Part shown: one piece after another, positions 2,252-11,945 of the stretch
Layout: every line of letters starts with the position of its first letter
Position numbering within the stretch: position 1 is the stretch's first letter
From: Melioribacteraceae bacterium
GTDB lineage: Bacteria; Bacteroidota; Ignavibacteria; Ignavibacteriales; Melioribacteraceae
Assembly (NCBI GenBank): GCA_028282005.1
Contig: JANQIV010000067.1
Location: forward strand, 1-54,021
Length of the DNA: 54,021 bases
Direction of reading: 5' to 3'
Position numbers and translations under genes: made by a program
The notes under the pieces: model-generated
What the model was told of the DNA's origin: nothing
What the model saw: only the letters and a program-made list of their open reading frames with translations
The model's database searches: none

Positions 2252-2447
2252 TATTTGCCTCATAATTGAATTAAACAATTATCAATTTATAATGCATAAT
2301 AATTACTTTGATTCTGATATACTATGCAAAATATTTTACCTAATTTCGGTTTTTTTAATCTGTTTAATTTTTCTTTTGATGAATACTAAAGTGCTGGAAT
2401 TCAAAAAGTAATTATTAAGTAATTATTCAAAAAAAATCAATAAAAAA

Positions 2448-2472
2448 CCCAAGCTCAAAAAATGAGCTTGGG
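2448..2472 (-). terminator. Rho-independent terminator after the PorV-like gene
   Basis: Read on the minus strand, a perfect 9-bp stem CCCAAGCTC / GAGCTTGGG with a 7-base loop is followed immediately by TTTTTTATTGATTTTTTT. It begins 28 bases after the stop of the PorV-like gene, which is the right place to end the receptor/T9SS/PorV operon. Confidence 0.9.
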
Positions 2473-2500
2473 TAATTAGAGAAAATTAATTTTTTCTCAA

Positions 2501-3535
2501 TTAGAAACCAAAACCTACACTAAACACGTGGTTGTTATCAAAGAATTCAACTTCTCTGAAAGCGTAGTTAACTTTAAGATCAAGGTTTCCTAAATCATAG
2601 TTAAGACCAACACCAGCAGTTAAACCATAAATGTTTTCGTCTTCTTCTAAATCAGGAGTCATCATATAACCACCTCTAACAAAGAAAGTGTTATCGAAGT
2701 TATATTCGCCACCGATTCTGTACTCATCACCATAGAAGTTTGAGTTTTGGAAAGTACCATTTAGATTTAGAGAATTTTGTTGATCAATTGACAATTGATA
2801 TCCCAAACCGATTTCCAAAGTAGAAGGTAATTCAAATGAAGCTGCTTCTATTTTGTAGAAGATTTGACCTTGTCTTCTTAATCCACCAGCATCAGCATCA
2901 ATGTTCAATCCAGAACCTTCGTAAGCCATTTGAGGACCTAAGTTTTTGATAGCAATACCAAAACCAAATCCTTGAATGTTAGCTAGGTTACTGTATGTGA
3001 TACCAACGTCGAAACCGATACCAGAAGCAGAAACTAATGCTAACTCTTCATTAATCAAATTAGCTGTAATACCAACTGAGATTCTGTCACTTAACATTTT
3101 TGAATATGTTAAACCAATTACGTTGAAGCCAGGGGAGAAGAACTGACCAGTTCCTTCAGGATTCTGAACAGTAGTCACCTCAATGTCATCAACATTAAGT
3201 GATTTGAATGAGAAACCAAAAGTACCTAAACCTTCAACATTAAATGATACAGCACCATATTGAACATCAATATCAGCAATGTAATTCATTAAAGAAAATG
3301 TTGCTTGAGTTTGGTGTGTACTTCTTGATAACAAAGCAGGATTATAATACATACCTTCGATACCATCAAGGTTAACCATTGCAGAACCACTCATAGCAAC
3401 TCCACGAGCACCAACTGGAATCAATAGTTGTGTTGCGCCTGCTGTACCGTTTCTTGCACCACCGCTAGCAAACAGGCTACCAGTAGACAGAACAACGATC
3501 AACAGAAAAGCAAATAATATTTTTATTTTTTTCAT
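2501..3535 (-). CDS. PorV/PorQ-family outer-membrane beta-barrel protein
   Basis: The 344-residue product has an N-terminal signal peptide (about 1-23, ending LFASG) followed by the GATQLLIPVGARGVAMSGS and GIEGMYYNPALL blocks. These blocks are characteristic of the PorV/PorQ (UPF0164-like) barrel family. The rest alternates polar and hydrophobic residues as in transmembrane beta strands and ends with the aromatic C-terminus FSVGFGF. Known PorV binds T9SS cargo C-terminal domains at the outer membrane and shuttles them to attachment; many paralogues of unknown role exist. The start is fixed by AAGGAG seven bases upstream. It lies 23 bp after a gene for a T9SS-type cargo protein, which suggests a dedicated partner, although this is inferred from adjacency. 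Confidence 0.85.
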   Translation of the reverse strand: MKKIKILFAFLLIVVLSTGSLFASGGARNGTAGATQLLIPVGARGVAMSGSAMVNLDGIEGMYYNPALLSRSTHQTQATFSLMNYIADIDVQYGAVSFNVEGLGTFGFSFKSLNVDDIEVTTVQNPEGTGQFFSPGFNVIGLTYSKMLSDRISVGITANLINEELALVSASGIGFDVGITYSNLANIQGFGFGIAIKNLGPQMAYEGSGLNIDADAGGLRRQGQIFYKIEAASFELPSTLEIGLGYQLSIDQQNSLNLNGTFQNSNFYGDEYRIGGEYNFDNTFFVRGGYMMTPDLEEDENIYGLTAGVGLNYDLGNLDLKVNYAFREVEFFDNNHVFSVGFGF

Positions 3536-3558
3536 TTTCAGTCTCCTTAAAATTTTAA

Positions 3559-6500
3559 TTAGAACCTATCAAGAATTTGTTCTTCTTGGATAATTGCTAT
3601 CTTAAGCGTTTTGGTTTTACCTATATCAGGCATATCAATATATGCTATATATAAACCACTAGCTGCAGGAAGACCTCTACCGTTGTTCAAGTCCCAATTC
3701 AAGAATTGTGACTCATCATTTTTGTCTAAGGTTCTAACTAACTGACCTGCTAAGTTGAATATTCTTATTTTTGCTTGCGTTGGCAAATGATTAAATGTAA
3801 TAAATCTTTCATTTTTGTTTAATTCTAAAGCGTTAACACCGTAATAAGGATTAGGGAATGCTTTGATTTTATCTACATCCACTTTAGCTAATTCAGCATC
3901 ATTTGTAACTGTAGGAGCCTCTAATGTAAATGTATCATCTAATCCATTAGGTTTAGTGTAATTAAATCTGATTACTGTTCCTGCAGGAGGTTGTAATCCA
4001 TCACCATCAAATTCAGCAATTACATAACGTCCGATAGGATAAACAAAACCACCGTGGAAATCAGCGTTATAATCAGCTGCCGCAGGATCTGTATCGAATG
4101 AATAATCGTAGAATGCTCCAGCACCACCTGATTGCACACATGAGTTATGGAATGCATCATAACCAGCAGTAGGTGAACTTAAGTCTTTTGGATCCATCCA
4201 GTAAATAGCATCGGACATTGGATATGCTTGGAAAGTACCTTCAAGAACATCAGGAATAGCCCAACGCCAATCAGTACTACCACCTTCACCATTTGAGCTT
4301 AATAATAGAGGGATCATTCTGTAATCATCTGATGGATCATCTGGTGTAGCAACACCAATATTCCAAAGTTCAAAAGTAGTTCTACCGATCATATCGTCTT
4401 CAAATGCATAAACGCCAAAACCACCATCTGCTGTCCATCTTAATTCATAATCATTTGGAGAAGCAAAGTCAACATATCTGTACATTCTAGATAAGTCACC
4501 ACTTGCGTTTGTACTTGCATAATATCTGTCGTTATTACCATCTGCACCTGCAGAGTTTAAGCTGTGCCATACAGTGTTACCATTATAAGGAGTACCTCTG
4601 CCGTCATAATCTGCTTCAGTTAATGTAACTCCACCGTATGCTATTTCAACCATACCATCAGCATTACCAATTGGATCAGTTGGATCAGCATCTTTGATTT
4701 TGTTGAAAGGACCGGAAACTCTCCATTGAATACCATCAACTATTGGAGATGATTCATCACCAAGTTGATTTGTGACATTGTCCAATTTAACTTCACCTGT
4801 AGTTTGGTCTACTAAATCCCAAACAATAATTGTATGACCGTGGCCGTCATCACCTTCTTCAAATCTAATTAAGTAATCATGGCCAGTTAAAGCACTTTGG
4901 TCAACTATTACAGCATTTAATGCACCATCACTAACACCAGTAGCATGAACACCTTCATAAACATCACCTGCGTCTGCATTATATCTAACACCAGGTGTTG
5001 TTGTTTGAGGTACGGCATTAACAGCTAATAATGTATTTTCTAATGTTTGAGGAACAACTAATGGATCTGGGTTATATGCATAAGCAGTAATTGCAAAGTA
5101 ATAATCAGAACCATTGTTAAATGGAATGTTGCTATTAAGAGCATCAGTGTCAACTCTTAATGATCTTCTGATACCAGTATCGTTACCGGTTTGAGTAATT
5201 TTATCGATTGTAACACCGTTTTGTAATGCACCTTCAATAATTACTGTAACACCGTCAATAATATCAAATGTAGCTATTTTTTGTAATCTCGAAGGATCGT
5301 TGATATCTTCAAAAGTTACTGATGGAGCAGACATTTGCCATACATTGTAACCTTGGAATTCATAACCTTGTTCTGAGTGGCCTTCTGTTAATGCAACAGT
5401 TTCAGCATCATCCCAAACAAGTAATACTTCTCTATCAAAGTTGGAAACAGTCAATTTAGGTCTTTCAGGAGCACCTGGTAATTCAAAGTTGTTGTTGTAC
5501 GCATCTTGAGCAACAATATCAAATGCTTTTAGAAGTGTAATAGCGTCTAAGTTATTTGTTCCAGTTGTACCACCAGCAGCTATCTGAGCAACAACTATTT
5601 CTTGTGTTTCACCAGCAGAAAGTGTAAATGGACCAGAAGATAAACCGTATCTTCTATCACCAGCAGCATGAACTTGACCATCAATCCAACCAGTTCCGGC
5701 AACTGGATCACCAGCTAATGTAAATGTAGTTTGATTTCCTGAAGGATCAGTAAACAATGCACCTGTTTTACCAATTCTACCTTGTAGGAAATTATACATT
5801 TCTAATGTACCTTCAACATATTCACCTAAACTAGGATCAGTTAAGAAAGGATCAGCTCTAATAAAGAAGAATGCAGCAGTCATAGGTAAGTTAGTTTTAC
5901 CTTGGAGCCACTCGCCGCCTGACTTTCCACTATCAGGTAAATTAAATCTTTGTATTAATTCATTACTTGCATCATAATCAACTAACGGACCTTGGAAAAA
6001 GTCAAATCCAGTAGCTGGAGGTGTATCGCCGTAAGTAGCATCATTTGGGAAAGCGTTATAAGCAAAACCTAAACTTAAACTTGTATCACTACCAACAAAG
6101 TCATCAGTAGCGTTACCAACATCAGGATCACTCCACATACAAACATAAAAATCAGTCATGTCTGTAGTAGTAACGTTTCTTAGTTCATATTGTCTAAATA
6201 GCATGTTACCTAAAGGACCTACAGCGTTATAACCAAAGATGGTTGCCTTCATTTCAATACCCATTGAAGGTGAACCGTAAAGGCTACCTGCAGCTTCTTG
6301 ATCTAAGTCGTTTGCAACGAACCATACAGTTTGATCAGCACCAGGAACACCTGGAATATCAACAGCTGGATTATAGTTTCCATCACCGTCAACATCTTCA
6401 TAAGGTGCATTATAAGGTGCAGCAGCCGGCCATTCATTCCAGTCAGTTTCATACTGAGCAAATATTTCTGCTTCTGAAACACCTTCATTAGTTGCTTCCG

Positions 6501-6930
6501 GAGTCAAGTTACCAGTAGCATAATCTCTTCTTACTCTATAGATTCTTACTTGAGGTAAATCTGGGCTTTCAGCTACGCCATTAATAACGGCACCCGGTAA
6601 AAGACCTTGGTTAAATGTTGATCCACCAACTCTGATTTCACCATTTACTTTACCACCCCATAAAAAACCAGACTGATAAACAGTGTGTAAGTTTGAGTTT
6701 TTAGGATATTCAAAGCCTGAGTTACCAGCGTTAACATCAGATTCACCATCGTTTCTAATAAAAGTAGAAACGTTGTTTATGTTAAATCTTGTAAGAGCAG
6801 GAGCCCCCTGCACTTTGCTTAACGATTTTACTGAACTTTTTCCCTCTTTGGCCTCAGCTACCGCAGAGTTCGTAGGGTAAAAGCATAATAAAACCAACAG
6901 TAATGTCAAATTTACTAGTTTATTATTCAT
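3559..6930 (-). CDS. Large secreted protein with T9SS type A-like C-terminal sorting domain
   Basis: This 1123-residue protein has a signal peptide (about 1-25), an acidic calcium-loop-like segment VDGDGNYNPAVD near residues 180-191, and a long beta-rich body with a fibronectin-like stretch around residues 490-640. The last ~90 residues match the T9SS type A sorting-domain pattern: FPNPYYG, then IRIFNLAGQLVRTL, then GLPAASGLYIAYI, then KTLKIAII. In T9SS bacteria such domains direct export across the outer membrane and are then removed or anchored. I recognise no enzyme active site. The SD AAAGGAGT precedes the ATG. It sits between a TonB-dependent receptor (39 bp upstream) and a PorV-like barrel (23 bp downstream), so all three are likely one operon. 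The substrate or role is unknown. Confidence 0.8.
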   Translation of the reverse strand: MNNKLVNLTLLLVLLCFYPTNSAVAEAKEGKSSVKSLSKVQGAPALTRFNINNVSTFIRNDGESDVNAGNSGFEYPKNSNLHTVYQSGFLWGGKVNGEIRVGGSTFNQGLLPGAVINGVAESPDLPQVRIYRVRRDYATGNLTPEATNEGVSEAEIFAQYETDWNEWPAAAPYNAPYEDVDGDGNYNPAVDIPGVPGADQTVWFVANDLDQEAAGSLYGSPSMGIEMKATIFGYNAVGPLGNMLFRQYELRNVTTTDMTDFYVCMWSDPDVGNATDDFVGSDTSLSLGFAYNAFPNDATYGDTPPATGFDFFQGPLVDYDASNELIQRFNLPDSGKSGGEWLQGKTNLPMTAAFFFIRADPFLTDPSLGEYVEGTLEMYNFLQGRIGKTGALFTDPSGNQTTFTLAGDPVAGTGWIDGQVHAAGDRRYGLSSGPFTLSAGETQEIVVAQIAAGGTTGTNNLDAITLLKAFDIVAQDAYNNNFELPGAPERPKLTVSNFDREVLLVWDDAETVALTEGHSEQGYEFQGYNVWQMSAPSVTFEDINDPSRLQKIATFDIIDGVTVIIEGALQNGVTIDKITQTGNDTGIRRSLRVDTDALNSNIPFNNGSDYYFAITAYAYNPDPLVVPQTLENTLLAVNAVPQTTTPGVRYNADAGDVYEGVHATGVSDGALNAVIVDQSALTGHDYLIRFEEGDDGHGHTIIVWDLVDQTTGEVKLDNVTNQLGDESSPIVDGIQWRVSGPFNKIKDADPTDPIGNADGMVEIAYGGVTLTEADYDGRGTPYNGNTVWHSLNSAGADGNNDRYYASTNASGDLSRMYRYVDFASPNDYELRWTADGGFGVYAFEDDMIGRTTFELWNIGVATPDDPSDDYRMIPLLLSSNGEGGSTDWRWAIPDVLEGTFQAYPMSDAIYWMDPKDLSSPTAGYDAFHNSCVQSGGAGAFYDYSFDTDPAAADYNADFHGGFVYPIGRYVIAEFDGDGLQPPAGTVIRFNYTKPNGLDDTFTLEAPTVTNDAELAKVDVDKIKAFPNPYYGVNALELNKNERFITFNHLPTQAKIRIFNLAGQLVRTLDKNDESQFLNWDLNNGRGLPAASGLYIAYIDMPDIGKTKTLKIAIIQEEQILDRF

Positions 6931-6969
6931 ATTTTAAACTCCTTTTTATTTTAATCCTTCAATTTGTTT

Positions 6970-9948
6970 TTAATATTCTAACCTAATTCCAAGCTGATAT
7001 TGTCTAGGAGGACCAAAAACTAAAGGATTAGCATAAACTCCAGATTGTAGATACTGTTCGTAGTAATTTAAGTTAATTGCAGTATAGACATCTTTGTAAA
7101 TGTCGCCATAAGTTTCAATTAAGTTAGCTGAGAACTCTGGGTTAGTTAAGAAACCATCATCAGTGTGAGTACCAGTTCTTAAGAATACGTTTTGAACATT
7201 TTCAGAATCAAAGACGTTTATAGCTCTGAAATAAATGTTTAAGTTCAATAAATCAAATAAATTGAAAGTTTTGTCTATTCTTAAGTCTACTTGGAATGTT
7301 CCAGGAGTTGTAGATGAATTTAAACTTTCAAGAGGTTGTCTATCTCTAGCATCACCTTCTAAATCTTGTCCACCTTCACCTAATGTGAATGGGTGACCAC
7401 TTGAGAATGTTGCTAATACAGATGCACCTAATTGATTCAATAAAGCATTTCCTTCGTCAGCGTCAAAACGGTAATCTAAGTTAACACTACCTGAGAAAGC
7501 TCTGTTGAATTCTAATGGAGAAACATACGCAGGGGTAAATACTTGGTTGTTAATAGGAGCACCAACTATACCTCTTTGTGAGTTAGGAAATGAACCTGTT
7601 CCTTGTGCATCTTGGAAAGACATATTTGCATTGATTGCAAGATTATTAGTTCTTCTCATAGTGAATGAAACTTCAACACCTTTAGTTGTCGCGAAGTCAC
7701 CATTTGCTGAGATGTTATAATCTTGTACAATTGAGTTATTATCTGTAAATACTTGTCTAAATACTACTTGGTCTTTTACATCTTTGTAGTAACCAGTAAT
7801 GTCAAATGACATATTGTCACCAACTTGTTGTGTGAAACCAAGTTCGTATTGAGTAGTTCTTGTTGGATTTAAGTTTGTACCTTCAGGATTTCCGAAGAAG
7901 AAACTTTGACTGAATTGATAAGCCCATCTGTACCAGCCAGTATATAAGTCAGCTAATCTAGGTTGTTGAACGAATTTACCATACTGAGCATGGAATACTG
8001 TTTGATCAGTAATTGGGAAAGAAACACCAATTCTAGGGCTAACAAAGCTTTGAGCTTCAACTTCATTAAAACCATCTCTGTTTAATTCAAAAGTTTGATG
8101 GTTAATTGCACCTTCAGGATTTAAAGGATCAGCAAATTGTAAATCGTCTGTATCGATATAATCATATCTCAAACCTAAGTTTAAGATAATATCTTCAAAT
8201 TCAATTCTGTCTTGAATATAGGCACTTGCAAAAACTGGTTTTTTAGGACCGAAAAATTCATCATCATCAACTTTATCACCGAATTCATCATAACCCCAGT
8301 TATTAACACCAGCTCTCTGAATTAAAAGTCTACTTTGAGCTGCTCTTAAATCACCATCATATGTATCAGAACTTGTAACTACATTTAACTGGCCAGCAAA
8401 TGATCTAGTAACTGTAGAAGTTGTCCAGTTTCTTGAAGTATACTGTTGGTAACTACCACCTAACTTAATAGAGTGGATATTTCCGATTAAATAAGATAAT
8501 GATGCAGAGAAGTCAAGACTGTTTGTTTCTCTTTTAAAATAGTTTCTAGGAATATCACCATTTTTGTAGAATGTAAAGTTCATTACATTTAATTCAGCAG
8601 GATTAGAATATCTTCCTCTAAATACATCCCAACCGACATTTGCGTTAGCAACACTATCACCATAAGCCCAGATATTATCCCATAAGTGAGGATCTCCACC
8701 TTCGTCTTTGTTAATAGTCATTCCGGCAGAAACTTCATAGAATAATGATGGACTAAGAACGTGAGTAACTTTAGCTGAGAAAGCACCATCTTGGTCATCT
8801 CTCATACCATATCTTGTATTGTTAACATTTGCAATTGCAAATCCAGGGAAACTACCACGGCCACCAGTTTGTCTTTCACTAGTTGTGTAAGTTCCTGTTA
8901 CTCTAATCAAGAAAGGTTTGAAATCAAAGTTCAATGTACCAACATAAGTAAAGTCATTTCTGCTGTTACCTAATATTGGACCACCAGGATATATTAAATT
9001 AATACTATCACCTGATACTTGGTCATTAACTAAACCAATATCAATACCTGGATATGGCTGAGGATTTTGATCTCTTCTAAATAAGTTATTTACGTTAAGG
9101 AAGAATTTAACTCTATCATCAAATAAAGGACCGCCTAAAGTTGCAGACATTTCTTCATATCCGTAAGTATAAGCGCCTAAAGTTTTTTCGCCGTCGAATG
9201 TGTCGTCAGCGCTTTTGAAACCAATATTGTCAGTAATATATTCAAAAGTGGCTTTCATTTTAGGACCACCAGATTTCAATTGCTGACGAATAATACCAGC
9301 GTTAGCACCACCAAATTCAGCTTGATAACCACCAGACTGAACTTGAATTTCTTCCAACGCATCCTGTGAAATTGTTACACCTCTACCACCCAATACTGGG
9401 TTTGTAATGTTATTACCTTCAAGATAGAAACCAACTTCATCAAATCTACCACCTCTAATGAATACAATATTATCTTGAAGAACAACACCAGCAGATAAAC
9501 TAAGAATATTGTTAACACCTCTAATCGGAAGTGCTTCAATATCTTCACTAGATGTAATTCTTGTAGCGTTAGTAGCATCTTTTTGGATAAGCGGTCTTTG
9601 CGCTTGAACTACAACACTTTCAACCGTAATATCATCGCTGGGGAGTTCGAAGTTTACGTATGTTGTTAAGTCAGCGTTAACACGAACATTAGTTAATGTA
9701 ATTGCTTGATAACCAAGATAAGAAGCTCTAACATCATATACACCAGCTTCGAGGTTTAATAGAACAAAATCACCATTAGCATCAGTAGCAGCACCAATAC
9801 TGGAACCTACAACAATAACGTTAGCACCTATTAAGGGTTCGCCTGTTTGTAAATCTACAACAGTACCCCTAATTCTACCTTTTGTTGTAGCCATTAAGGT
9901 AGGGACTAATGCTACAAATAGCAAAAAGTAAAAAATTTTTCGAAGCAT
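6970..9948 (-). CDS. TonB-dependent receptor with N-terminal carboxypeptidase-regulatory-like domain
   Basis: The 992-residue product starts with a signal peptide (about 1-21). A carboxypeptidase-regulatory-like beta-sandwich follows (about 24-110; GRIRGTVVDLQTGEPLIGANV), then a plug domain (about 125-240, with the IRGGR segment) and a long beta barrel ending in an aromatic strand, RQYQLGIRLEY. Such outer-membrane receptors import ligands with energy from TonB-ExbBD. Some CarboxypepD-type (Oar-like) receptors instead work with T9SS cargo. No SusD-like lipoprotein is adjacent; the next genes are a T9SS-type protein and a PorV-like barrel. AAGGAG lies six bases before the ATG, and an in-frame stop just upstream excludes an extension. 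A structured leader with its own promoter precedes it. Confidence 0.88.
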   Translation of the reverse strand: MLRKIFYFLLFVALVPTLMATTKGRIRGTVVDLQTGEPLIGANVIVVGSSIGAATDANGDFVLLNLEAGVYDVRASYLGYQAITLTNVRVNADLTTYVNFELPSDDITVESVVVQAQRPLIQKDATNATRITSSEDIEALPIRGVNNILSLSAGVVLQDNIVFIRGGRFDEVGFYLEGNNITNPVLGGRGVTISQDALEEIQVQSGGYQAEFGGANAGIIRQQLKSGGPKMKATFEYITDNIGFKSADDTFDGEKTLGAYTYGYEEMSATLGGPLFDDRVKFFLNVNNLFRRDQNPQPYPGIDIGLVNDQVSGDSINLIYPGGPILGNSRNDFTYVGTLNFDFKPFLIRVTGTYTTSERQTGGRGSFPGFAIANVNNTRYGMRDDQDGAFSAKVTHVLSPSLFYEVSAGMTINKDEGGDPHLWDNIWAYGDSVANANVGWDVFRGRYSNPAELNVMNFTFYKNGDIPRNYFKRETNSLDFSASLSYLIGNIHSIKLGGSYQQYTSRNWTTSTVTRSFAGQLNVVTSSDTYDGDLRAAQSRLLIQRAGVNNWGYDEFGDKVDDDEFFGPKKPVFASAYIQDRIEFEDIILNLGLRYDYIDTDDLQFADPLNPEGAINHQTFELNRDGFNEVEAQSFVSPRIGVSFPITDQTVFHAQYGKFVQQPRLADLYTGWYRWAYQFSQSFFFGNPEGTNLNPTRTTQYELGFTQQVGDNMSFDITGYYKDVKDQVVFRQVFTDNNSIVQDYNISANGDFATTKGVEVSFTMRRTNNLAINANMSFQDAQGTGSFPNSQRGIVGAPINNQVFTPAYVSPLEFNRAFSGSVNLDYRFDADEGNALLNQLGASVLATFSSGHPFTLGEGGQDLEGDARDRQPLESLNSSTTPGTFQVDLRIDKTFNLFDLLNLNIYFRAINVFDSENVQNVFLRTGTHTDDGFLTNPEFSANLIETYGDIYKDVYTAINLNYYEQYLQSGVYANPLVFGPPRQYQLGIRLEY

Positions 9949-10002
9949 ATTATTCTCCTTGTTTGTTTAATTATAAAAGAAAGGGCTAAAGATCTAAAGA
10001 CA

Positions 10003-10023
10003 TTAGTAAAATTTTAATATCAC
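10003..10023 (-). CDS. Possible 6-codon leader ORF with near-perfect Shine-Dalgarno
   Basis: A GTG at 10023 opens a six-codon frame (M-I-L-K-F-Y) ending TAA at 10003. AGGAGG ends five bases before it, within an 11-base perfect match (10036-10026) to the complement of the 16S rRNA 3' end. The SD is much stronger than that of the receptor gene downstream. The ORF is too short for any homology argument, so translation is inferred only. Confidence 0.25.
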   Translation of the reverse strand: MILKFY

Positions 10024-10025
10024 TT

Positions 10026-10070
10026 TCACCTCCTTAGCTTAAAGTTTTTTTTTAAATATAATTTATCCAT
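10026..10070 (-). CDS. Possible 14-residue basic leader peptide
   Basis: An ATG at 10070 opens a 14-codon frame whose peptide is lysine/arginine-rich (MDKLYLKKNFKLRR). Its TGA stop is formed by the last bases of the AAGGAGGTGA element. It lies in the untranslated leader of the TonB receptor operon. A ribosome finishing this frame would sit over the strong SD. There is no SD of its own. It may be chance, since the region is A-rich. Confidence 0.25.
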   Translation of the reverse strand: MDKLYLKKNFKLRR

Positions 10071-10206
10071 AGTAGTAAAGATATTATTTACCCTTGAAAT
10101 AAAAATTTTGCCCTGGAACTTTTTTTGAATGATAATAGTCTAAACACCTAAAAGTTTATACCCTTTTGCGACTAAAATAAAACTTAGATACCCATTAAAA
10201 CAAGAG

Positions 10207-10255
10207 CCAAATAAAGTATCCCTAAAGAATTACCCACCTAATTATCTTTATTTGG
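10207..10255 (-). promoter_or_regulatory. Inverted repeat at the predicted 5' end of the receptor mRNA
   Basis: Perfect 10-bp arms CCAAATAAAG and CTTTATTTGG flank 29 bases. The first arm on the minus strand starts at 10255, about seven bases after the predicted -10 box, so the transcript would begin with this stem. The loop carries AGGTGGGTA and AGGGATA. It could be a 5' stabilising stem-loop, part of a cis-regulatory RNA, or a DNA operator for a dimeric repressor. Confidence 0.45.
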
Positions 10256-10261
10256 TATAAG

Positions 10262-10290
10262 AATTTAATATAAGCTTAATACTTTGTCAA
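10262..10290 (-). promoter_or_regulatory. Sigma70-like promoter for the receptor/T9SS/PorV operon
   Basis: On the minus strand TTGACA (10290-10285) is followed after 17 bases by TAAATT (10267-10262). This is a full -35 match and a 4/6 match at -10, between the trxA terminator and the receptor gene. It predicts a leader of about 305 bases. Bacteroidota can use a different -33/-7 consensus, so the assignment is tentative. The rest of the 515-bp gap (9949-10463) holds the two tiny leader frames, the inverted repeat and the trxA terminator; I see no other gene in it. Confidence 0.45.
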
Positions 10291-10421
10291 GGTTTTATTA
10301 TTGCGATATATTGTTAAATTTTGCATCGAAAATCAACTTTCCTTAACAAAAATAAACTTGTTGTCAATATTAAAATTTAGTAACGGAAAATATTTGCATG
10401 TTTTTATCTTTTTTGTACTAA

Positions 10422-10452
10422 AAAAGAACCTTCAAATCCAGAAGGTTCTTTT
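10422..10452 (-). terminator. Rho-independent terminator after trxA
   Basis: Minus-strand reading gives AAAAGAACCTTC, a 7-base loop, and GAAGGTTCTTTT running into TTAGTACAAAAAAG. The 12-bp stem is perfect and lies 12 bases past the trxA stop codon, closing the dut-to-trxA run. Confidence 0.9.
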
Positions 10453-10463
10453 AAGTTTTTTAC

Positions 10464-10787
10464 CTAAGCTAAAATATTAACAATTTTGTCAACAAATTGT
10501 TGTTTAGGAACTGCACCTATGATAGTGTCTTTTACTTCACCACCATCAAAAAACAAAACTGTTGGGATACTTCTTACACCAAATTTTATTGATGTGTTTT
10601 GATTGTCATCCACATCTAATTTACCAACTTTTACTTTACCTTCATACTGTTCTGCTAATTCTTCAATAATTGGTGCAATCATTCTGCACGGCCCACACCA
10701 TGCAGCCCAAAAATCTACGATTACAGGAATATTCGAATTTACAACTTCAGCTTCAAAGTTATCGTCTGTTATAGTAATTGGTTTCAT
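10464..10787 (-). CDS. trxA: Thioredoxin
   Basis: This 107-residue protein is a full-length classical thioredoxin. It has the redox-active WCGPC motif (C31 and C34), the FWAAWCGPCRM context, a conserved internal LDVD strand, and the cis-proline segment SIPTVLFF. It reduces disulfides in cytoplasmic proteins with electrons from thioredoxin reductase. AAGGAG precedes the ATG by eight bases. It lies 15 bp after the acyl-CoA dehydrogenase stop, so it is probably the last gene of that operon, and a strong terminator follows. No unusual residues are visible. Confidence 0.97.
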   Translation of the reverse strand: MKPITITDDNFEAEVVNSNIPVIVDFWAAWCGPCRMIAPIIEELAEQYEGKVKVGKLDVDDNQNTSIKFGVRSIPTVLFFDGGEVKDTIIGAVPKQQFVDKIVNILA

Positions 10788-10802
10788 CTCTAATTCTCCT
10801 TC

Positions 10803-11945
10803 TTAAATTTTTCCATTTTTCTTTATTACGTCTCTTGCAATAATTCCTTTTTGAATTTCGTTTGTTCCTTCGAATATTTTATTGATTCTGGAATCTCTAT
10901 AGAATCTCTCGATCGGTAGTTCTTTTGAATATCCCATTCCACCGTGTATTTGTACGGCATAGTCAGCTATTTTATCTAAGCTTTCTGAACAATAATATTT
11001 TACTATTGCTGATTGCGTGGAAATATTTTTTTGTAAATCATAATCAACAGCTGTTCTGTAAACAATTGATTCCATTGTGTAAATCATAATTTCCATTTCT
11101 GCAAGCATGAACTGGATTCCCTGGAAGTTGCTTATAGATTTATCAAATTGTTTTCTTTGTTTAGAATAATCAGTTGACATTTCCAACAATTCTTTCGCAG
11201 CACCTAAGCAAGCAGCACCTAAACCAAGTCTACCCGCATCAAGAGTTTTCATTGCAATTAGGAAACCTCTACCATCTCTGCCAACTAAATTTTCTTTTGG
11301 GATTCTTACGTTGTCAAAAGTAATTGGATTTGTTACGCTGCCTTTAATTCCCATTTTCTTTTCAGGAGGGCCAAAGCTATAACCCGGGTGATCAGTCTCA
11401 ACAATAAAAGTACTAATACCTTTTTCAGTTCTTGCAAATACAGAAACGATGTCGGCAATACCGCCATTAGTAATCCAAAGTTTTTCTCCGTTTATTACCC
11501 ACTCATCACCATCAATATCAGCTTTAGTTTTTAAGTGGAAAGAATCTGAACCAGCTTGAGCTTCAGTTAAACAGAAAGCTCCGATTTTTTCTCCGGATGC
11601 AAGTTGAGTTAAATATTTTTGTTTTTGTTCTTCCGAACCACCAATATATATAGTGTTTGCCCCGATTGATTGATGTGCACCAATAAATGTTGCTGTTGAC
11701 ATACAACCACGAGCTATTTCTTCTTGTGCTAAGCAGTAACCAACTTCACCAAATCCGCCGCCGCCGTATTCTTCCGGGAAAGACACACCGAGGATTCCGA
11801 TTTCAGCTAACTTCTTAATTAAATCTTCGGGTATTTTTTCATCTTCGTCAATCTTTGATGCTATTGGTTTGATTTCATTATTTGTGAAATCTCTAACCAT
11901 ATCTCTGAGCATTAATTGCTCTTCAGTAAATTTGAATTCGAACAT
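10803..11945 (-). CDS. Acyl-CoA dehydrogenase (short-chain/butyryl type)
   Basis: The 380-residue flavoprotein shows the full acyl-CoA dehydrogenase architecture: an N-terminal helical domain with EYGGGGFGEVGYCLA, a middle FAD-binding beta domain with CLTEAQAGSD and LWITNGG, and a C-terminal helical domain with QIHGGMGY and IFEGTNEIQ. The glutamate of IFEGT is the usual catalytic base of short- and medium-chain enzymes. It oxidises acyl-CoA to trans-2-enoyl-CoA, passing electrons to ETF. Length matches the family. It lies 18 bp after the SDR gene and 15 bp before trxA. Chain-length preference cannot be read from the sequence alone. Confidence 0.93.
   Translation of the reverse strand: MFEFKFTEEQLMLRDMVRDFTNNEIKPIASKIDEDEKIPEDLIKKLAEIGILGVSFPEEYGGGGFGEVGYCLAQEEIARGCMSTATFIGAHQSIGANTIYIGGSEEQKQKYLTQLASGEKIGAFCLTEAQAGSDSFHLKTKADIDGDEWVINGEKLWITNGGIADIVSVFARTEKGISTFIVETDHPGYSFGPPEKKMGIKGSVTNPITFDNVRIPKENLVGRDGRGFLIAMKTLDAGRLGLGAACLGAAKELLEMSTDYSKQRKQFDKSISNFQGIQFMLAEMEIMIYTMESIVYRTAVDYDLQKNISTQSAIVKYYCSESLDKIADYAVQIHGGMGYSKELPIERFYRDSRINKIFEGTNEIQKGIIARDVIKKNGKI

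Follow-up and report, generated by a model that had tools for sequence, protein, structure and literature searches.

The subject of this work is a three-gene operon near the start of a 54,021-nucleotide stretch of DNA (the window) from a Melioribacteraceae bacterium of the class Ignavibacteria (assembly GCA_028282005.1, contig JANQIV010000067.1). It encodes a TonB-dependent receptor, a large secreted surface protein, hereafter the cargo, and an outer-membrane barrel of the PorV/PorQ family. The three genes form a conserved module, and we lean, by little more than an even chance, towards the view that it specifies a surface uptake (or attachment) complex assembled by the type 9 secretion system, in which the cargo has a private PorV as its escort and probable anchor and works over the TonB receptor as SusD does over SusC. 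The elements concerned are the following.

6970-9948, minus strand: gene of the TonB-dependent receptor (open reading frame (ORF), 992 residues)
3559-6930, minus strand: gene of the secreted surface protein, the cargo (ORF, 1123 residues)
5482-6807, minus strand: cargo residues 42-483, with a carbohydrate-enzyme-like fold (VIA-align to 9ju0)
3562-3864, minus strand: C-terminal sorting domain, type A-like, about residues 1023-1123 of the cargo (TIGR04183 and PorZ model)
3562-3588, minus strand: nine-residue tail QEEQILDRF behind the sorting domain (codons of the C-terminus)
2501-3535, minus strand: gene of the PorV/PorQ-family outer-membrane barrel (ORF, 344 residues; NF033709, 177.5 bits)
2447-2473, minus strand: intrinsic terminator behind the barrel gene (stem and T-run; folding compared with shuffles)

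A search with the cargo matched 141 of the 149 genomes of the class at an E-value of 0.001, many of them weakly. The regions examined comprised 60 hand-chosen ones and the best 80 of 529 named loci, found with two sorting-domain peptide patterns and biased to this kind of C-terminus. A six-frame recount with our own profiles yielded 145 unique cargo genes of at least 400 bits, the window's included; 16 of them touch a contig end where no neighbour was found, and 129 do not. The whole trio, with the receptor upstream and a PorV-family gene downstream, is present in 109 of the 129, the window again included, in a sample that favours close relatives of the window cargo. Two further cargos have the PorV only, and 18 have neither neighbour. 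An initial annotation of this DNA had suspected a self-contained module; the three families indeed co-occur far above chance, both in these 109 of 129 relatives and around 20 of 21 strong PorV paralogues. The complete trio stands on contigs labelled, among others, Ignavibacteriae, Melioribacter, Stygiobacter electus, Calditrichota, candidate division KSB1, Neomarinimicrobiota and Gemmatimonadaceae, although metagenome bins may carry a wrong taxon label. Within a phylum sample of 296 genomes, scored for the cargo only, matches at an E-value of 1e-30 were found in 100, 46 from the window's class and 54 from outside it. The PorV genes of loci L044 and L063 are overlain by longer ORFs on the opposite strand.

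The distance matrices of receptor, cargo and barrel correlate at 0.66-0.81, which indicates that the parts travel together, yet is expected for linked genes. Covariation across all columns of the sorting domain in 89 trios gave a top z of 7.99 with PorV and 7.16 with the receptor as control, and 10.9 vs. 8.2 pairs per ten thousand over z 4.5, respectively, a slight margin for PorV that was not counted as evidence. The strongest pair, cargo E1116 and PorV R221, is a lead only. At locus L086 (about 6300-11200) the cargo lies between receptor and PorV as two ORFs of 251 and 1009 residues, with one TGA inside the match; this is apparently a broken copy or a sequencing error.

The same arrangement was found when the barrels were taken as the starting point. 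In four nearly closed genomes, each made up of one or two contigs, the trio-barrel model finds 21 places of at least 140 bits, 20 of which have both a TonB receptor gene and the gene of a sorting-domain protein no more than three genes upstream on their own strand. Six of the 20 accompany a tailed cargo, and eight a tailless cargo of a second kind, whose domain ends in GKFAIIK or similar and was assigned through a cargo-profile match reaching the sorting domain. Two go with shorter sorting-domain proteins, and four show the order sorting-domain protein, unknown gene, receptor and PorV, the sorting domain being recognised there by the motif pattern alone. The exception (genome G113, 3181100) has a 772-residue receptor-like protein (129 bits) and lacks a sorting-domain protein. 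Among the lower-scoring PorV-family places, some were inspected. It seems to be a general theme in these bacteria that a PorV has a cargo and a receptor of its own, and tailed modules are one branch of it; the initial annotation mentions neither the tail nor the existence of several module subtypes. The genome of the window itself carries a second receptor-cargo-PorV trio on contig C95 (locus L091, 2918-11936), with a tailless cargo, followed by a 524-residue sorting-domain protein. At locus L211 (genome G119, 2961885-2963900) two PorV-family genes of 298 and 334 residues stand in tandem, with no receptor match up to three genes upstream.

The initial annotation named a grouping of the barrel with paralogues unrelated to type 9 secretion as a point that would speak against its proposal; the barrel falls inside the PorV/PorQ family, beside the C95 PorV and apart from canonical PorV and PorQ. 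The family model NF033709 scores it at 177.5 bits against a cut-off of 90 and matches all 42 trio barrels compared (E 0.001). The models of single members all leave it below their cut-offs: canonical PorV (NF033710, an equivalog model) at 74.5 vs. 250 bits, PorQ (NF033711) at 86.1 vs. 220 bits and PorV2 (NF052325) at 62.5 vs. 325 bits. The PorP/SprF model TIGR03519 matches one of the 42 barrels, the window's not among them. The predicted structure has a predicted local distance difference test score (pLDDT) of 89.2, and its closest fold is PorV of the solved translocon (6h3i_F; Z 33.3 over 278 residues at 3.4 Å), with PorV also at ranks 1 and 2 in Foldseek.

The barrel tree has 73 rows, among them the window barrel and a random draw of 45 of the 103 other trio barrels; it is unrooted and contains no Bacteroidia reference PorV. 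On one side of a branch supported at 99/97 are the trio barrels and those of L061 and L163, both likewise encoded behind a cargo gene; the receptor-linked PorV of C95 joins them (99/97). Eighteen canonical PorVs taken from behind PorU fall on one side with 96/59, which is not full support. Two PorQ rows and one Calditrichota row stand apart (100/99). Canonical PorV lies directly behind PorU in 18 of 20 loci, an opposite-strand ORF having hidden the PorV site in the other two. Since the canonical gene is a separate one behind PorU, the trio barrel is an addition to it.

TIGR04183 scores the C-terminus of the cargo narrowly above the type A cut-off (25.2 vs. 23 bits), and in a search of the whole genome with this model the cargo ranks 95th of 99 matches with 30.1 bits. 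The Pfam model of the type A sorting domain leaves it under its cut-off (16 vs. 27 bits), as does CHU_C for type B (16.2 vs. 27 bits). The PorZ model covers residues 1012-1115 with 33 bits, against a cut-off of 260. At an E-value of 0.001, 36 of 42 cargo relatives match the PorZ model and 30 match TIGR04183.

Cargos were classified with a C-terminal motif pattern that requires [SAP][GA]xY/F and so excludes the second cargo kind (YGxY) and L061. The 104 unique classified trio cargos end in F (51), Y (37), I (8), L (6) or W (2), none in K or R, and 31-37 residues separate the SGxY motif from the C-terminus. K or R is the last residue in 47 of the 49 other sorting-domain proteins of these loci, and a motif-to-end distance of 23 is seen in 37. 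An ending in K or R shortly behind the conserved lysine, which the window cargo lacks, serves here as a local yardstick and is not a published criterion. Position -14 from the C-terminus (motif E) is lysine in 106 of the 107 classified cargos that precede a PorV gene and arginine in the remaining one. Behind it the consensus reads L-A-[IV]-[IV]-Q-E-Q-Q-[IV]-L-D-R-[FY], so that the tail consensus is QEQQILDR[FY]; E(-8) is kept in 91, Q(-6) in 94, L(-4) in 94 and D(-3) in 82 of the 107. The lone-chain model gives residues 1118-1123 a pLDDT below 50, i.e., the end is not ordered. With both flanks in view, receptor and PorV genes adjoin 108 of the 116 tail-bearing cargos, and a PorV stands next to 0 of 14 cargos with a canonical or other C-terminus as classified by the pattern. 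In published structures a conserved lysine near the C-terminus contacts PorV (PMC10994853). A tail behind this lysine would therefore lie near the interface, and we infer that it could read the PorV surface. Tandem cargo paralogues that lack receptor and PorV occur at loci L051 and L137, the latter with one tail-bearing copy among three with a canonical C-terminus.

The body of the cargo has no Pfam family above cut-off. Its AlphaFold model reaches a mean pLDDT of 80.3, and residues 42-483 best match dextran dextrinase 9ju0 (Z 19.4 over 255 residues at 3.1 Å; VIA-align), followed at Z 16-19 by chains of cellodextrin phosphorylase, GH116, glucoamylase and GH94. The matched region precedes the catalytic part in cellodextrin phosphorylases, GH116 enzymes, glucoamylase and dextran dextrinase, and is presumably the beta-supersandwich domain of glycoside phosphorylases and hydrolases. 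Those enzymes carry a separate catalytic barrel. The modelled fold suggests a sugar-like ligand for the cargo. PorZ came first in the Foldseek list for the whole cargo, but the chains superpose poorly (root-mean-square deviation 31.9) and this match was not used.

In the receptor, CarboxypepD_reg and the TonB barrel score above their cut-offs, and Plug slightly below (22.0 vs. 23.9 bits). CarboxypepD_reg is found in all 31 aligned relatives and Plug in 30 of them (E 0.001). Residues 110-119 form a stretch which we take to resemble a TonB box. The SusC/RagA model stays below its cut-off (60.7 vs. 368 bits), and no SusD match up to an E-value of 0.5 was obtained in the four proteins scanned between 881 and 9948. 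The initial annotation had the cargo occupying the place of SusD. As an analogy this is fair, SusD being matched in only 38 of the 149 class genomes, but the window's own genome has one SusD, and the receptor combines its low SusC score with an Oar-like N-terminal layout. The lipobox pattern is absent from the window cargo and present in 3 of 89 trio cargos, so the cargo does not look like a lipoprotein. Together with the sparse SusD, this favours a SusCD-like arrangement whose partner would be delivered by type 9 secretion and held by a barrel.

The export machinery is present in the genome of the window: SprA gives 422, 409 and 208 bits in one frame of 2312 residues, and PorU 826 bits. SprA occurs in 148 of the 149 class genomes, which leaves its presence or absence across the class without power. 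PorV-family genes were counted from at most about 13 scored candidates per genome and the counts are lower bounds. Nine genomes of family f15 have at least three such genes each, and no cargo match better than 3.9e-7. The best PorV-family match of the window's genome reaches 207 bits, compared with about 260-330 bits in most other class genomes; nine others are also lower. A lack of canonical PorV in this genome was considered and rejected. Its PorU is cut at the end of contig C31 and PorV follows PorU in relatives, so that the canonical PorV probably lies in an assembly gap. Two PorQ genes were found (269.2 and 271.6 bits; C142/L094 and C143/L093); they are close tree neighbours in similar surroundings on short contigs, with a YceI-family gene in L094 and what is presumably a succinyl-CoA synthetase-like gene. 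The pair reflects either a duplication or a strain variant in the assembly.

The putative mechanism can be outlined as follows. SprA would export the cargo across the outer membrane, guided by the C-terminal domain, and the cargo would bypass the shared PorV and cutting by the PorU sortase, because its own PorV-family barrel would recognise the sorting domain and the nine-residue tail. The barrel would probably stay bound to the cargo as its membrane anchor, like PorQ for PorZ; a review has proposed that cognate PorV-like barrels shield such domains from cleavage (PMC10202324). The anchored cargo might then capture a ligand above the TonB-dependent receptor, which would import it. We infer that cargo and PorV bind each other, that the domain is retained, that the cargo docks on the receptor and that the ligand is glycan-like.

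Several points weigh against this scheme. Cargo-PorV binding, secretion of the cargo and uptake are all predictions from sequence and models. Eight tail-bearing cargos lack their own PorV and receptor, being tandem copies, neighbours of a trio or solitary genes, and a single PorV may therefore serve more than one cargo. By analogy with orphan type B cargos of Flavobacterium, which share a shuttle (PMC12618676), these exceptions may share an escort. The proposal of the initial annotation that the PorV-like protein serves one cargo is supported by the gene organisation. The cargo of L061, which has a PorV next to it, carries the different ending LSPTNN. In the second module subtype a PorV stands beside a cargo that lacks the tail; the tail is thus not needed for having a partner. 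In the 89 trios the tail covaries with PorV as often as with the receptor (19.4 vs. 19.8 per thousand at z >3). The modelled fold of the N-terminal domain is not proof of sugar binding, and no catabolic gene was recognised beside the operon, the other genes of the window not having been scanned for one. Finally, C-terminal extensions are tolerated in PorU, PorZ and PPAD (PMC11285876), so that the tail need not block the shared PorV.

This last point also speaks for an ordinary type A cargo, escorted by the shared PorV and then cut and attached to surface glycan by PorU, with another job for the neighbouring PorV. The domain does exceed the type A cut-off (25.2 vs. 23 bits). We nevertheless consider such a cargo unlikely, as an adjacent PorV gene accompanies the tail (108 of 116 vs. 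0 of 14), the cargo is followed by PorVs of a single subfamily in contigs from several phyla and the domain is only 95th of the 99 TIGR04183 matches in its own genome. The receptor raises another question, whether TonB energy helps to push or release the cargo, making the trio a secretion rather than an uptake module. It shares its N-terminal layout with Oar, a TonB-dependent transporter required for protease secretion in Myxococcus (PMC6434023), and its gene stands tightly upstream of the cargo gene. However, this layout occurs in 28% of such receptors and is dominant in Bacteroidetes (PMC6434023) and hence is not diagnostic of Oar-type export; moreover, the genome encodes SprA and the cargo bears a type 9 signal. 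Export by the receptor is accordingly judged quite unlikely.

It is also conceivable, though very unlikely in our estimate, that the barrel is a FadL-like channel and the trio an uptake system for hydrophobic molecules with no role in secretion. Residues N65-P66-A67, which we take to be the FadL hatch motif, are invariant in 42 of 42 barrels, and FadL folds match well, with Z up to 29.7. The PorV fold matches better, however (Z 33.3; Foldseek ranks 1 and 2), the PorV/PorQ model is exceeded with 177.5 bits where FadL stays under its cut-off at 20.5 bits, and 20 of the 21 strong paralogues lie with a sorting-domain protein.

As regards the layout of the operon, the initial annotation described three tightly spaced genes bracketed by a promoter and a clean terminator. 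The ORFs were confirmed on the minus strand in the order receptor, cargo, barrel with gaps of 39 and 23 bp, and AGGAG-like sites precede all three starts. The terminator (2473-2447) turned out to have an 11-bp stem and a T-run; the region 2435-2500 folds at -25.2 kcal/mol (z -6.9), equalled by 0 of 200 shuffles. The promoter was not borne out in a scan limited to the sigma-70-like type, which gave 35 matches in the region with 35.4 expected by chance. Beyond the terminator, a GWxTD-domain protein (TIGR04514, 104 bits) is encoded at 881-2278 on the minus strand, and GWxTD genes directly follow the trio in several relatives, e.g., L036, L047, L072 and L084.

More broadly, we put forward as a possibility, at somewhat less than even chance, a third class of type 9 escort. 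The PorV family would have multiplied in Ignavibacteria and neighbouring phyla into private escorts and anchors, each reading its own C-terminal address (the nine-residue tail in the present subtype), and type 9 secretion would build SusCD-like TonB complexes with a surface half that is held by a barrel rather than by a lipid. If PorV-family barrels are private, the choice between a shared and a private escort could become testable with the nine-residue tail, as does that between release, sugar-linked attachment and retention. It would also mean a surface partner for a TonB receptor that does without a lipid anchor, in lineages poor in SusD. The recurrence of the trio in many relatives suggests an ability of the type 9 system to assemble surface machines in which private escorts replace the single shared one.

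Our literature searches, judged on titles and abstract openings, gave no paper describing a PorV-family private escort or its link to a TonB receptor. PMC12618676 states that the PorV shuttle recognises every type A signal and that type B cargos have cognate PorP/SprF shuttles; specific pairing of type B cargo and shuttle is published (PMC12618676; PMC9143113). Private escorts are thus already known for type B with PorP/SprF. The type B systems, e.g., SprB/SprF, resemble the trio in having a cargo gene followed by its own outer-membrane barrel gene. What sets the trio apart is a barrel from the PorV/PorQ family, a type A-like domain that bears a tail and the inclusion of a TonB receptor in the operon. 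Canonical PorV shares family and predicted fold with the trio barrel, which is of another subfamily, below the PorV equivalog cut-off, while the canonical gene sits behind PorU.

In PorZ/PorQ and PorU/PorV the protein retains its C-terminal domain, which is bound by a barrel of the PorV/PorQ family (PMC10202324), as proposed here for the trio. The likeness to PorZ extends to the cargo domain, with 36 of 42 relatives matching the PorZ model there, but the window cargo is far below the PorZ cut-off (33 vs. 260 bits) and is accompanied by a receptor. PorZ has one extra C-terminal residue and PorU three (PMC11285876), compared with the nine-residue tail of the trio cargo. Finally, SusC/SusD and the trio both combine a TonB receptor bearing an N-terminal CarboxypepD_reg domain with a large exported partner in the same operon. 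Unlike SusC, the trio receptor is below the SusC model cut-off, and unlike SusD, its partner has neither a SusD match nor a conserved lipobox (3 of 89) and carries a type 9 sorting domain instead.

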